Assembly (NCBI GenBank): GCA_002422765.1
Contig: DITI01000032.1
Location: 1 to 16,193, forward strand
Length of the DNA: 16,193 nucleotides
Direction of reading: 5' to 3'
DNA from: Candidatus Pacebacteria bacterium UBA6188
GTDB taxonomy: Bacteria > Patescibacteriota > Microgenomatia > UBA1400 > PJMF01
The position numbers and the translations under genes are program-made. The first letter of the stretch is position 1. Every line of letters starts with the position of its first letter. Positions 4,756 to 9,357 of the stretch are shown piece after piece. The notes below the pieces were generated by a model that searched no databases, had not been told where the DNA came from, and was given only the letters and a program-made list of their open reading frames with translations.

Positions 4756-5487
4756 ATGGGAAGCAAAAAAAACGTCGACATGACGCAGACCGAGATGGAA
4801 ATCAAAACCGTCGAAGTCGAAAATCCTACAGAAGTTAATGTTGAAGGCAGTGAAGAAACTGTCGTCAAAAAAGCCGTCAAGGCCAAAAAAGCGAGAAGTA
4901 AACGCTATCAAGCTGTACGTGCTCAATTAGACAAAAGCAAATTTTACCCAGTTAAGGAAGCTGTTGAGTTAGTCAAAAAACTTTCTTACAGTCATTTCGT
5001 TGGTTCTGTCGAAGCTCACATTATTGTGCGCGAAGTTTCTAGTAGTGTTGATCTCACTTTGCCACATTCCACTGGCAAAAGCGTTAAAGTAGCGATTGTT
5101 GATGCTGCTCTACTCGCAGAAATTGAAGCTGGCAAGCTTGATTTTGACATCTTACTCGCTCATCCAGAGTTCATGCCTAAATTAGCCAAATTAGCTAGAG
5201 TTTTGGGTCCAAAAGGCCTGATGCCTAACCCAAAAAATGGCACTTTGACTCCCAATCCAGAAATCAAAAAGAAAGAGTTGGAAGCTGGTAAATTTACTCT
5301 CAAAACTGAAAAAAAAGCTCCCCTCATGCACTTGGTGATTGGTAAAACTGACATGAGCAACGATCAGCTTAACGAAAACATTGAAGCCTTGCTCAAAGCC
5401 CTCAAAGGCAAAGTTCTCAAGCTAAGTCTTTCTCCCAGTATGGGACCAGGCATTAAAGTTTTGGTAGAAGATAAAGACGAAGAATAA
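4756..5487 (+). CDS. rplA: 50S ribosomal protein L1
   Basis: 243 residues. L1 forms the mobile stalk at the ribosomal E site and represses its own mRNA. The conserved core starts near residue 45 (SKRYQAVRAQLDKSKFYPVKEAVELVKK) and carries the signature LARVLGPKGLMPNPKNGTLTP, ending in LSPSMGPGIKVLVED. An acidic, Val/Glu-rich N-terminal extension of about 40 residues is unusual. ATG 4756 has only a weak purine stretch upstream (AGAAAG), and internal ATGs at 4780 and 4795 are possible alternatives. Some CPR lineages lack L1, so its presence is informative for placement. Confidence 0.96.
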   Translation: MGSKKNVDMTQTEMEIKTVEVENPTEVNVEGSEETVVKKAVKAKKARSKRYQAVRAQLDKSKFYPVKEAVELVKKLSYSHFVGSVEAHIIVREVSSSVDLTLPHSTGKSVKVAIVDAALLAEIEAGKLDFDILLAHPEFMPKLAKLARVLGPKGLMPNPKNGTLTPNPEIKKKELEAGKFTLKTEKKAPLMHLVIGKTDMSNDQLNENIEALLKALKGKVLKLSLSPSMGPGIKVLVEDKDEE

Positions 5488-8144: not shown

Positions 8145-8229
8145 GATGCCTTTCTTTGTTTTGATTTTTATTTTACTTTGTTTCTTAATAATTTGCTTGC
8201 TGGTTGTGACAAGATTACACTTCTTGCAA

Positions 8230-8256
8230 TAAAAAATCCCGCTCTGTGGCGGGGTT
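8230..8256 (-). terminator. attenuator terminator before thrS
   Basis: On the minus strand CCCGC (8253-8249) pairs with GCGGG (8242-8238) across a 6-nt loop, followed by A and six T residues (8236-8231). The 5' arm AACCCCGC (8256-8249) is also complementary to the upstream GCGGGGTT (8285-8278), so this stem competes with an antiterminator. Confidence 0.75.
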
Positions 8257-8285
8257 TATTTTGCAAACAACAATCACAACCCCGC
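8249..8285 (-). promoter_or_regulatory. antiterminator stem of the thrS leader
   Basis: GCGGGGTT (8285-8278) pairs perfectly with AACCCCGC (8256-8249): 8 bp around a 21-nt loop. Segment 1 begins 4 nt after the leader peptide stop. A ribosome finishing the peptide would cover it and allow the terminator, while one stalled on the Thr codons would leave it free. Confidence 0.7.
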
Positions 8286-8288
8286 TTC

Positions 8289-8330
8289 TTAAGCAGTAGT
8301 AGTGGTAGTGTTTGAAATAAGGCTTAACAC
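8289..8330 (-). CDS. threonine-rich leader peptide of the thrS attenuator
   Basis: GTG (8330-8328) starts a 13-codon ORF, MLSLISNTTTTTA, with stop TAA at 8291-8289. Five consecutive Thr codons (ACT ACC ACT ACT ACT, 8309-8295) sit just before the end. The GTG lies 7 nt after a perfect TATAAT, the same spacing as the leaderless starts elsewhere in the window; no Shine-Dalgarno is present. TTAAGC (8327-8322) and GCTTAA (8294-8289) can form a 6-bp stem enclosing the Thr codons, a candidate pause hairpin. The product is expected to act only in cis, by reporting charged tRNA-Thr supply. Confidence 0.75.
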   Translation of the reverse strand: MLSLISNTTTTTA

Positions 8331-8337
8331 GAGTCTC

Positions 8338-8365
8338 ATTATAAACCAATGATAAAATTTGACAA
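8338..8365 (-). promoter_or_regulatory. promoter of the thrS leader
   Basis: On the minus strand TTGTCA (8365-8360), 16 nt, TATAAT (8343-8338). It is the strongest consensus match on this strand. It lies 15 nt after the DUF368 stop codon and predicts initiation at about 8331-8330, at the leader GTG. Confidence 0.75.
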
Positions 8366-8379
8366 GCTTGGACAAAAAA

Positions 8380-9357
8380 TCAAATTTCTCCAGACTTTTG
8401 CGAGCGCAAGGCTTTGGCGTGCTCTTTTTCAAATTGCTTGTCTTCCACGTCTTTAACACTCTCCTTGGTCACGTTAAAACGATCCAAAAATAGAATTAGT
8501 CCAAAACCAAGAGCAATGAGAACAAGTGAGAAGAAAAAAGCGCTGTTTAAGATCGGTAAAACATTGCTTTCCAGTAAAGGCACTACTTCACCATGACTAT
8601 TAATTCTGGTACTGATTACCTCCTTCCAAGGCCAAACTTTGCGCAATGAACCAATCATAAAACCAATTAAAGCTGCCACTACGATGTCATGATGTTTGGC
8701 AAAAAGCCAAGACAAAAGACGAGAAAAAAGCGCCAAACCCAAGATTGAACCGGTCATCACCGCACCCAAAACCAAGAAATTTTGTTCAGACACCGCAGTC
8801 AAAACCTGTTCGTACTTACCCATAATCACCAATAAAAATGAGCCAGAAATTCCAGGTAAAATCATGGCACAAATGGCTACAGCTCCAGCCAACAAAAAAG
8901 CCAAAAGGGTGGCTGGGGTTTCAACTGGCACTGAACCAACCAAGAAATAAGCAAAGATCGCCGTCAGAACCAAGGCAAAATAATCATGCTTATTCCAAGT
9001 CACTACTCTCTTGCGCACCACCATAACTGAAGCCAAGACTAGACCAAAGAAAAAGGACCAAACAAACTCTGGCTGATGTTTTAACAAATAAGAAATACCG
9101 TTAGATAAAGCCAAGATTGCGGTCATCATGCCCAAAAAGAGGGGCACTAGAAATCCAAAAGGCACTTTCTGCCAAGCCTCTTTAATTTTGAGACGCACTA
9201 TCAAATGTAAAACTTCACCACTCAAAAGCTTAATACTGTAAATTAACTGCTCATAAATACCCAATAAAAAAGCAATTGTTCCTCCAGAAACTCCTGGAAC
9301 AGTATCGGCTGAACCCATCATAAAACCAGAGAAAAACAAACGGAGAAATTTTTTCAT
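8380..9357 (-). CDS. DUF368 / PopT-family polyprenyl-phosphate transporter
   Basis: 325 residues, polytopic (about 8-10 membrane segments). DUF368 proteins (PopT) have been shown in other bacteria to return undecaprenyl phosphate across the membrane for peptidoglycan and glycan synthesis. The hallmark duplicated motif is clear: DTVPGVSGGTIAFLLGIYE (residues 18-36) and LPGISGSFLLVIMGKYE (167-183), consistent with two inverted halves. The tail after the last membrane segment is charged (KDVEDKQFEKEHAKALRSQK) and cytosolic. The start ATG 9357 is 7 nt after an extended -10 box. It begins 40 nt after the stop of the DUF2207 gene, with its own promoter. Confidence 0.85.
   Translation of the reverse strand: MKKFLRLFFSGFMMGSADTVPGVSGGTIAFLLGIYEQLIYSIKLLSGEVLHLIVRLKIKEAWQKVPFGFLVPLFLGMMTAILALSNGISYLLKHQPEFVWSFFFGLVLASVMVVRKRVVTWNKHDYFALVLTAIFAYFLVGSVPVETPATLLAFLLAGAVAICAMILPGISGSFLLVIMGKYEQVLTAVSEQNFLVLGAVMTGSILGLALFSRLLSWLFAKHHDIVVAALIGFMIGSLRKVWPWKEVISTRINSHGEVVPLLESNVLPILNSAFFFSLVLIALGFGLILFLDRFNVTKESVKDVEDKQFEKEHAKALRSQKSGEI

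Follow-up and report, generated by a model that had tools for sequence, protein, structure and literature searches.

The gene thrS in this 16,193-nt stretch of DNA (the window) is preceded by what is very probably a ribosome-mediated transcription attenuator, one that makes the gene respond to charged tRNA-Thr. The gene predicted to be under its control (8144–6102, minus strand) encodes a threonyl-tRNA synthetase (ThrRS) of 680 aa; several relatives carry that name, and homology agrees with the precomputed Pfam domains (PF03129, PF00587 and PF07973). The window is contig C18 of a MAG of 776,431 bases in 66 contigs, with a completeness of 89%. Its nearest named ThrRS relatives are 'Candidatus Pacebacteria' UBA6180 (88%), CP011212.1 (85%) and two uncultured bacteria (84%). 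We take Pacebacteria to be CPR bacteria of the Microgenomates group, and the closest record supports the CPR host that an earlier, sequence-only reading of this DNA had thought probable.

Every element described in that reading (promoter, 13-codon Thr ORF and three segments) was recovered at the same coordinates on the minus strand. The promoter scan found a –35 hexamer TTGTCA (8365–8360) and, 16 nt away, a –10 hexamer TATAAT (8343–8338), which jointly give 11 of 12 matches. Shuffles of the scanned region average 0.6 promoter-like sites, whereas the region itself has two, the other one being weaker and on the plus strand. Seven nucleotides past the –10 hexamer begins the leader ORF (8330–8289), with 13 codons and a stop: GTG TTA AGC CTT ATT TCA AAC ACT ACC ACT ACT ACT GCT TAA. 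It starts with GTG at 8330 and stops with TAA at 8291–8289. The run of five Thr codons, ACT ACC ACT ACT ACT (8309–8295), is the predicted stall site and would also contribute to the 5' side of a protector hairpin. By comparison, Thr accounts for 198 of 4065 codons in the 12 ORFs of the window. Segment 2 in the classical numbering, GCGGGGTT (8285–8278; previously segment 1), was identified from sequence and pairing tests and starts 6 nt past the first base of the stop codon. Segment 3, AACCCCGC (8256–8249; previously segment 2), has two possible partners according to pairing tests and folding: 8285–8278, giving the antiterminator, or, via CCCGC, 8242–8238, giving the terminator. Segment 4 (8242–8231), seen in both scan and folding, supplies the 3' arm of the terminator and the U-tract, and consists of GCGGG (8242–8238), an A and six T (8236–8231).

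Known examples of leader-peptide attenuation are trp, his, thr and pheST. The elements found here, together with their geometry, conservation and covariation as read from the genomes, support the trp/his/thr type of logic that had been proposed for this leader. From them we infer the start of transcription, translation, stalling, termination and read-through, as follows. RNA polymerase would start at about 8331–8330, placing the start codon at the 5' end of the transcript, and a ribosome would load at once on the leaderless mini-ORF. With Thr-tRNA plentiful, the ribosome would reach the stop codon (8291–8289) and cover segment 2 (8285–8278); segment 3 would then pair with segment 4, and transcription would end near 8231. 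With Thr-tRNA scarce, the ribosome would stall on the Thr codons, leaving segment 2 free to capture segment 3; no terminator would form, and thrS would be transcribed. Were the leader left untranslated, the Thr-codon region could pair with segment 2 as a protector, and the terminator would form by default.

To assess conservation, we compared the DNA upstream of thrS across the order. Of 55 genomes searched for ThrRS, upstream DNA was read for 50, leaving out G017, G025 and G043 (no strong ThrRS match) as well as G019 and G051. Two loci (L117 and L126) had no anchor motif, giving 48 loci, and the named record L036 was added by hand, giving 49. A Thr-rich ORF of 13–24 codons with 4–8 Thr, followed by an intrinsic terminator, is present in 30 of the 49 regions, spanning 18 genera; the other 19 thrS loci in the sample have no such leader. 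L036 was chosen because its leader was already visible, and without it the count is 29/48. The terminator search scores T-runs and stems, so that the presence of a terminator in 30/30 is partly by selection. Loci with a weaker Thr ORF (L025, L031, L120, L124, L127 and L130) were not counted. A separate, common criterion picks the same 30: at least three of one amino acid within five codons, in an ORF of 8–25 codons, with a terminator within about 130 nt, over 700 nt searched. Examples of the leader are MLNQIILTTTTTTTTNP (L128), MIRRYQTTTTTTTP (L016) and MLNIISTTNTTSP (L010). For comparison, a Thr-run ORF with terminator was found in 1 of 63 upstream regions of other tRNA synthetases, comprising 34 regions of the window's genus and 29 hisS regions of its family (Fisher p = 3e-13, for loci that are not independent). 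Within the window's genus, 700 nt upstream of other synthetase genes held no cognate codon runs (ileS, 0/7; valS, 0/6; pheS, 0/6; tyrS, 0/7; trpS, 0/8).

An alignment of related thrS upstream regions, called for beforehand by the sequence-only reading, places the leader in all eight genomes of the genus. Codons –3 to –6 from the stop encode Thr in 8/8, with third-base changes only. The compensatory changes expected in the three segments are also there, with the segments changing together across genera. In L007 and L009, the leader starts about 440 nt upstream of thrS. In L009, the opposite strand between leader and thrS carries a tmRNA-like stretch, to which Rfam gives 33.4 bits against a gathering score of 47; this match was seen in L009 only, not L007, and ARAGORN found no tmRNA. 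Another type of short conserved ORF (MYKK.G...KVVYTTC or the like) precedes thrS in L039, L040, L042, L043 and L045, four of them Dojkabacteria-labelled records and one Patescibacteria-labelled, with no terminator evident by eye.

Folding of the window's leader gave strong single hairpins. In isolation, the terminator (8256–8231) reaches –9.5 kcal/mol (z = –3.6) and the antiterminator (8288–8249) –17.0 kcal/mol (z = –4.3), each beating all 200 shuffles. The complete leader RNA (8330–8231) is less striking, at –27.3 kcal/mol (z = –2.2). Since the antiterminator is the more stable of the two isolated hairpins, the outcome would hang on kinetics. Across the 30 loci, we took the best pairing of the terminator 5' arm with DNA past the last Thr codon. 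Tested against 1000 dinucleotide shuffles, this antiterminator is stronger at p < 0.05 in 21 loci and not in the other nine. When sought from near the stop codon instead, it is so in 16/30; this search misses three loci that have segment 2 within the leader ORF (L020, L023 and L122). The Fisher combined p over the 30 loci, 4.5e-22, is overstated because the loci are related, and hence one representative was taken for each of the 18 genera. Their own pairings sum to –283.7 kcal/mol, versus –223.0 (sd 10.8) for permuted ones, with p = 5e-5 being the floor of 20,000 permutations. Judged by these predicted pairings, segment 2 suits the terminator arm of its own leader better than arms taken from other genera.

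Positions of segments 2, 3 and 4 that pair in both forms number 123, of which 77 are G-C-G and 46 are other triples. Among the latter, 26 (TAT, TGT) have T in segment 4, mostly from the U-tract; the remaining 20 (ATA, GTA, CGC and others) are not attributable to it. Mutually exclusive pairing, claimed from the window by itself, was thus borne out by the permutation test and by three-way changes. The geometry is similarly constrained. In 30/30 loci, the start of segment 2 falls at –19 to +7 nt relative to the first base of the stop, and at +7 to +18 nt relative to that of the last Thr codon. Assuming the textbook ribosome footprint, a ribosome at the stop would mask segment 2, whereas stalling at most of the Thr codons would leave it free; in some loci, a ribosome halted at the very last Thr codon could still cover it.

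The three-segment layout of the sequence-only reading therefore stands, but it lacked a probable fourth element of the classical kind, a protector pairing of the Thr-codon region with segment 2. In the window, a weak –11.6 kcal/mol (z = –1.1) is obtained for this pairing; in L036, it is strong (–23.5 kcal/mol). Genus representatives favor their own protector pairings over permuted ones (p = 0.0017), but individual loci score above shuffles in only 11 of 30 cases. With this pairing, the layout of the leader, 1:2, 2:3 and 3:4, would be that of classical attenuators.

Where the leader transcript begins is suggested by the spacing of the –10 box. In 28 of the 30 loci, a –10-like box (at least 5/6 to TATAAT) ends 6–12 nt ahead of the leader start, versus 3.3 expected from shuffles of the same upstream DNA, and the leader ORF is on this basis predicted to be leaderless. 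In the other two loci, the box ends 15 and 18 nt before the start codon. None of the ribosome-binding motifs GGAG, GAGG, AGGA and AAGG occurs within 18 nt before the leader start. By eye, TTGAC or TTGACA is found at about the expected distance in several class members. An in-frame ATG (8339–8337) overlaps the window's –10 box. Yet in the genus, window included, the start codon (GTG in 5/8, ATG in 3/8) sits 7–12 nt past the –10 box, which supports the GTG reading of the window. Both the box spacing and the congener starts thus favor the leaderless, GTG-initiated ORF originally proposed. Some Thr leaders follow a tRNA-Val gene (L314, L227 and L298; also L292, L307 and L308). In L314, the leader ATG shares its A with the tRNA's CCA; in L227, it starts one base past CCA. 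In such cases, tRNA processing might produce the leaderless 5' end.

A possible second –10 box, TAAAAT (8175–8170, minus strand), lies between the terminator and thrS. This tentative assignment comes from a motif count: GTA[AC]AAT (GTACAAT or GTAAAAT) occurs between terminator and thrS in 14 of the 30 loci, versus 1.1 expected in shuffles. The two-hexamer scan of the region reported no promoter at 8175–8170. The box may represent an unregulated, basal second promoter before thrS, in which case the effect of the attenuator would be limited.

Could the hairpin simply be the terminator of the upstream gene, with the Thr ORF incidental? That gene is on the same strand, its stop ends at 8380 and the hairpin starts 127 nt past its ORF; moreover, the scanned stretch contains four terminator-like hairpins, versus 0.4 in shuffles. 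But the Thr run, stop position, segment 2 and –10 box recur together in the 30 leader-bearing loci of 18 genera, behind at least two kinds of upstream neighbor (the end of a Gly-rich ORF in L008, L010 and L011), and the combination of Thr-run ORF and terminator is nearly confined to thrS (1/63 elsewhere). We consider this explanation highly unlikely. Equally hard to credit is control of thrS by a tRNA-sensing RNA (T-box) or other aptamer, with the ORF untranslated. In Firmicutes, thrS is governed by a terminator-based T-box that senses uncharged tRNA-Thr by direct binding, with no translation. Gene and signal are the same as in the window, whose leader nevertheless lacks the T-box motif: TGGNACC is absent from it, the two matches in the window lying at 5441 and 12562. 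In addition, no Rfam family reaches its gathering score in the window, and the leader's reading frame and Thr identity are conserved. Motifs like TGGAACCG/A were seen, by eye or pattern, at thrS of some related families and other CPR groups (L025, L029, L031, L041, L044, L121, L126 and L131). RF00230 scores in just one of the loci tested, L025, with 30.5 bits (E = 0.0033) against a gathering score of 93; Rfam gave no T-box support for L029, L031, L121, L126 and L131 or for the ileS loci L132 and L136.

In E. coli, ThrRS represses translation of its own mRNA at a tRNA-like operator near the start codon. The same arrangement is extremely improbable here, as 8230–8130 folds no better than shuffles (z = –0.3). 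A further scenario, in which the terminated leader RNA or the peptide acts in trans in addition to attenuation, has a parallel in trpL of Sinorhizobium meliloti (rnTrpL/peTrpL), where the ATG of the leader ORF forms the 5' end of the transcript, making the ORF leaderless, as described in the accessible part of PMC7298713. That leader serves trp biosynthesis, and both its RNA and its peptide also act in trans, unlike what is proposed for the window. Among the eight congeners, the peptide varies outside the Thr run and the Ala that follows it, which argues against a sequence-specific peptide, and we regard trans action as very unlikely. Ribosome-mediated attenuation is thus the reading that we retain.

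This kind of attenuator is known. The best Rfam family on the window's leader is RF00506 (Thr_leader, Enterobacteria; 27 bits, E = 0.0029, short of the gathering score of 55), which similarly combines a Thr-rich leader peptide, alternative hairpins and a terminator. The enterobacterial leader differs in its target, the thr biosynthesis genes, and in its longer, mixed Thr/Ile peptide. Closer in position is thrL of Streptomyces lividans TK24, a leaderless leader peptide, MKRVRPFLETTPGFVPAR, upstream of thrS that is listed as an attenuator (PMC8079986). Like the window's leader, it is a leaderless ORF with Thr codons directly upstream of thrS. It belongs to Actinobacteria and has two Thr codons, termination is called unclear, and segment covariation does not figure in the accessible part of that paper. 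Classical leader-peptide attenuation of synthetase genes is also described for Streptomyces trpS and leuS and for gammaproteobacterial pheST, with amino acids other than the Thr of the window; the same source reports no conserved RNA structure upstream of actinobacterial threonine operons (PMC1262725). In Rhodobacterales, a uORF with tandem cognate codons precedes cysS and is predicted to act by ribosome-mediated attenuation (PMC8632094), differing from the window in amino acid (Cys) and lineage (Alphaproteobacteria).

The claim of novelty made for the window hence holds in part: a leaderless Thr leader before thrS is known from S. lividans, while the claim may stand for CPR bacteria. The open-access literature searched, with preprints and most subscription papers outside, gave no earlier report of a leader-peptide attenuator in CPR/Patescibacteria. 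Two candidate precedents were rejected, as in the accessible parts 'leader peptide' refers to bacteriocin precursors (PMC7143001) and 'leaderless' appears only in a reference on secretion (PMC6851277). Within the literature searched, the presence and breadth of such attenuators in CPR bacteria seem to be new. From the genomes compared, the thrS attenuator appears unusually widespread in these related, mostly uncultured small-genome (CPR) bacteria.

To gauge this breadth, we searched with R1, a covariance model of 29 leaders (29/30; L020 was left out of the alignment). RNAalifold found only four consensus pairs in the leader alignment, so R1 is mainly a sequence model. It matched 62/88 genomes of the order (E ≤ 0.01), at least 124/373 of the class (E ≤ 1e-4) and 16/379 of the phylum (E ≤ 1e-5), counts that include leaders for other amino acids and some matches of unclear meaning. 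Among the class matches listed, 57 were inspected, 45 of them chosen mostly in E-value order with some skipped. In 24 of the 57, a Thr run is accompanied by a ThrRS motif no more than 900 nt away. L324, missed by the motif, has a Thr run and thrS by NCBIfam (467 bits; cut-off 383.65), making 25/57. Outside the class, three of six genomes with matches have, by eye, a Thr run before a ThrRS-like gene (L326, L329 and L331). Thr leaders would accordingly seem to precede thrS across the class and to be rare elsewhere in the phylum. Several R1 matches come without a cognate run (e.g. L296, L313, L320 and L322).

The sequence-only reading had suggested a search for other repeated-codon leaders before synthetase or biosynthesis genes, and this was productive: hisS, pheS, tyrS, trpB and others emerged. 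Formal control tests cover thrS and hisS only. By the common criterion, a His run occurs before hisS in 9/29 cases versus 1/83 for other genes; G010, G013 and G032 have only two adjacent His. The hisS leaders, with the gene assigned by family matches, contain FHHHSS in three congeners and the variants HHN and THHHSS in two. Genes scoring over the NCBIfam cut-off include pheS behind SSFFSHC, SFFFFSHC and FYFTYF (L219, L241 and L323), tyrS behind CNYYFYQ (L236) and trpB behind TAWWNSLK (L237). Also over the cut-off are aspartokinase behind TTKKTAKT and IIVTTTI (L310 and L318), threonine ammonia-lyase behind IIAITTTLL (L306) and cystathionine gamma-synthase behind TTTCT (L303). Best matches below the cut-off are leuS behind LSLLLLQ (L325), DAHP synthase behind tandem LYFYF and FYFYQLLY (L321), trpS behind FSWWRHSK (L222) and, for three DapF-like genes behind HHH or HHHH (L242, L287 and L316), histidine racemase (E = 1e-19 to 1e-25). 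These fall short partly because the fetched DNA ends inside the gene.

Several other arrangements were observed. Tandem leader-like ORFs with terminators precede one gene in L286, L288, L290, L300, L321 and L335/L339, often with the same amino acids (Tyr-Tyr, Cys/Thr, Phe/Tyr or Thr-Thr); no NCBIfam model matches the gene that follows the tandem Tyr leaders in L288 or the one that follows the Cys/Thr leaders in L290. Thr-run leaders also precede NAD-dependent epimerase-family genes (L213, L276, L294, L312 and L317). For L213 and L294, the best NCBIfam match of this gene is D-erythronate dehydrogenase, below the cut-off; our guess is threonine dehydrogenase. In L327, a Thr-run leader, MNKIFLTTTTTTIFFSY, precedes a SerB-like HAD phosphatase (TIGR00338, E = 6e-27, below the cut-off). 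In the window's genus, a conserved short ORF, e.g. MFNFCRKHTTIIFQNFLMKENVG, lies between an rplT-like gene and pheS in L206 (G000:C26:4287-4432, plus strand), and likewise in L148, L150–L153 and L156 (genes read by eye); it has an apparent antiterminator and terminator and no codon run. Leader-like ORFs (e.g. ...TINFKHLLVWGVAGCV) with terminators were seen by inspection upstream of a DprA-like gene in L214 and L218, and L221 has a similar ORF with another gene behind it.

On balance, we lean towards a class-wide reading, with outliers elsewhere in the phylum: CPR bacteria would control amino-acid genes by leaderless attenuators, which replace T-boxes and depend on close coupling. As part of this joint claim, Thr would point to thrS, and Thr with Ile or Lys to aspartokinase and threonine ammonia-lyase; His to hisS and histidine-racemase-like genes; Trp to trpB and trpS; Leu to leuS; and Phe/Tyr to pheS, tyrS and DAHP synthase, several of them in tandem. 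If this is true, the leaders hold the place of the T-boxes of neighboring lineages, and transcription in CPR bacteria is closely coupled to translation.

Gene regulation in CPR bacteria is, in our judgement, little explored. The amino acid concerned can be read off the repeated codon, which makes the pattern a possible clue to the function of unknown downstream genes, and codon runs may reveal substrate specificity, as for the DapF-like genes behind His leaders. A conserved attenuator would show that CPR cells sense charged tRNA. It would also imply that their ribosomes follow RNA polymerase closely, and it provides a leaderless start that can be tested.
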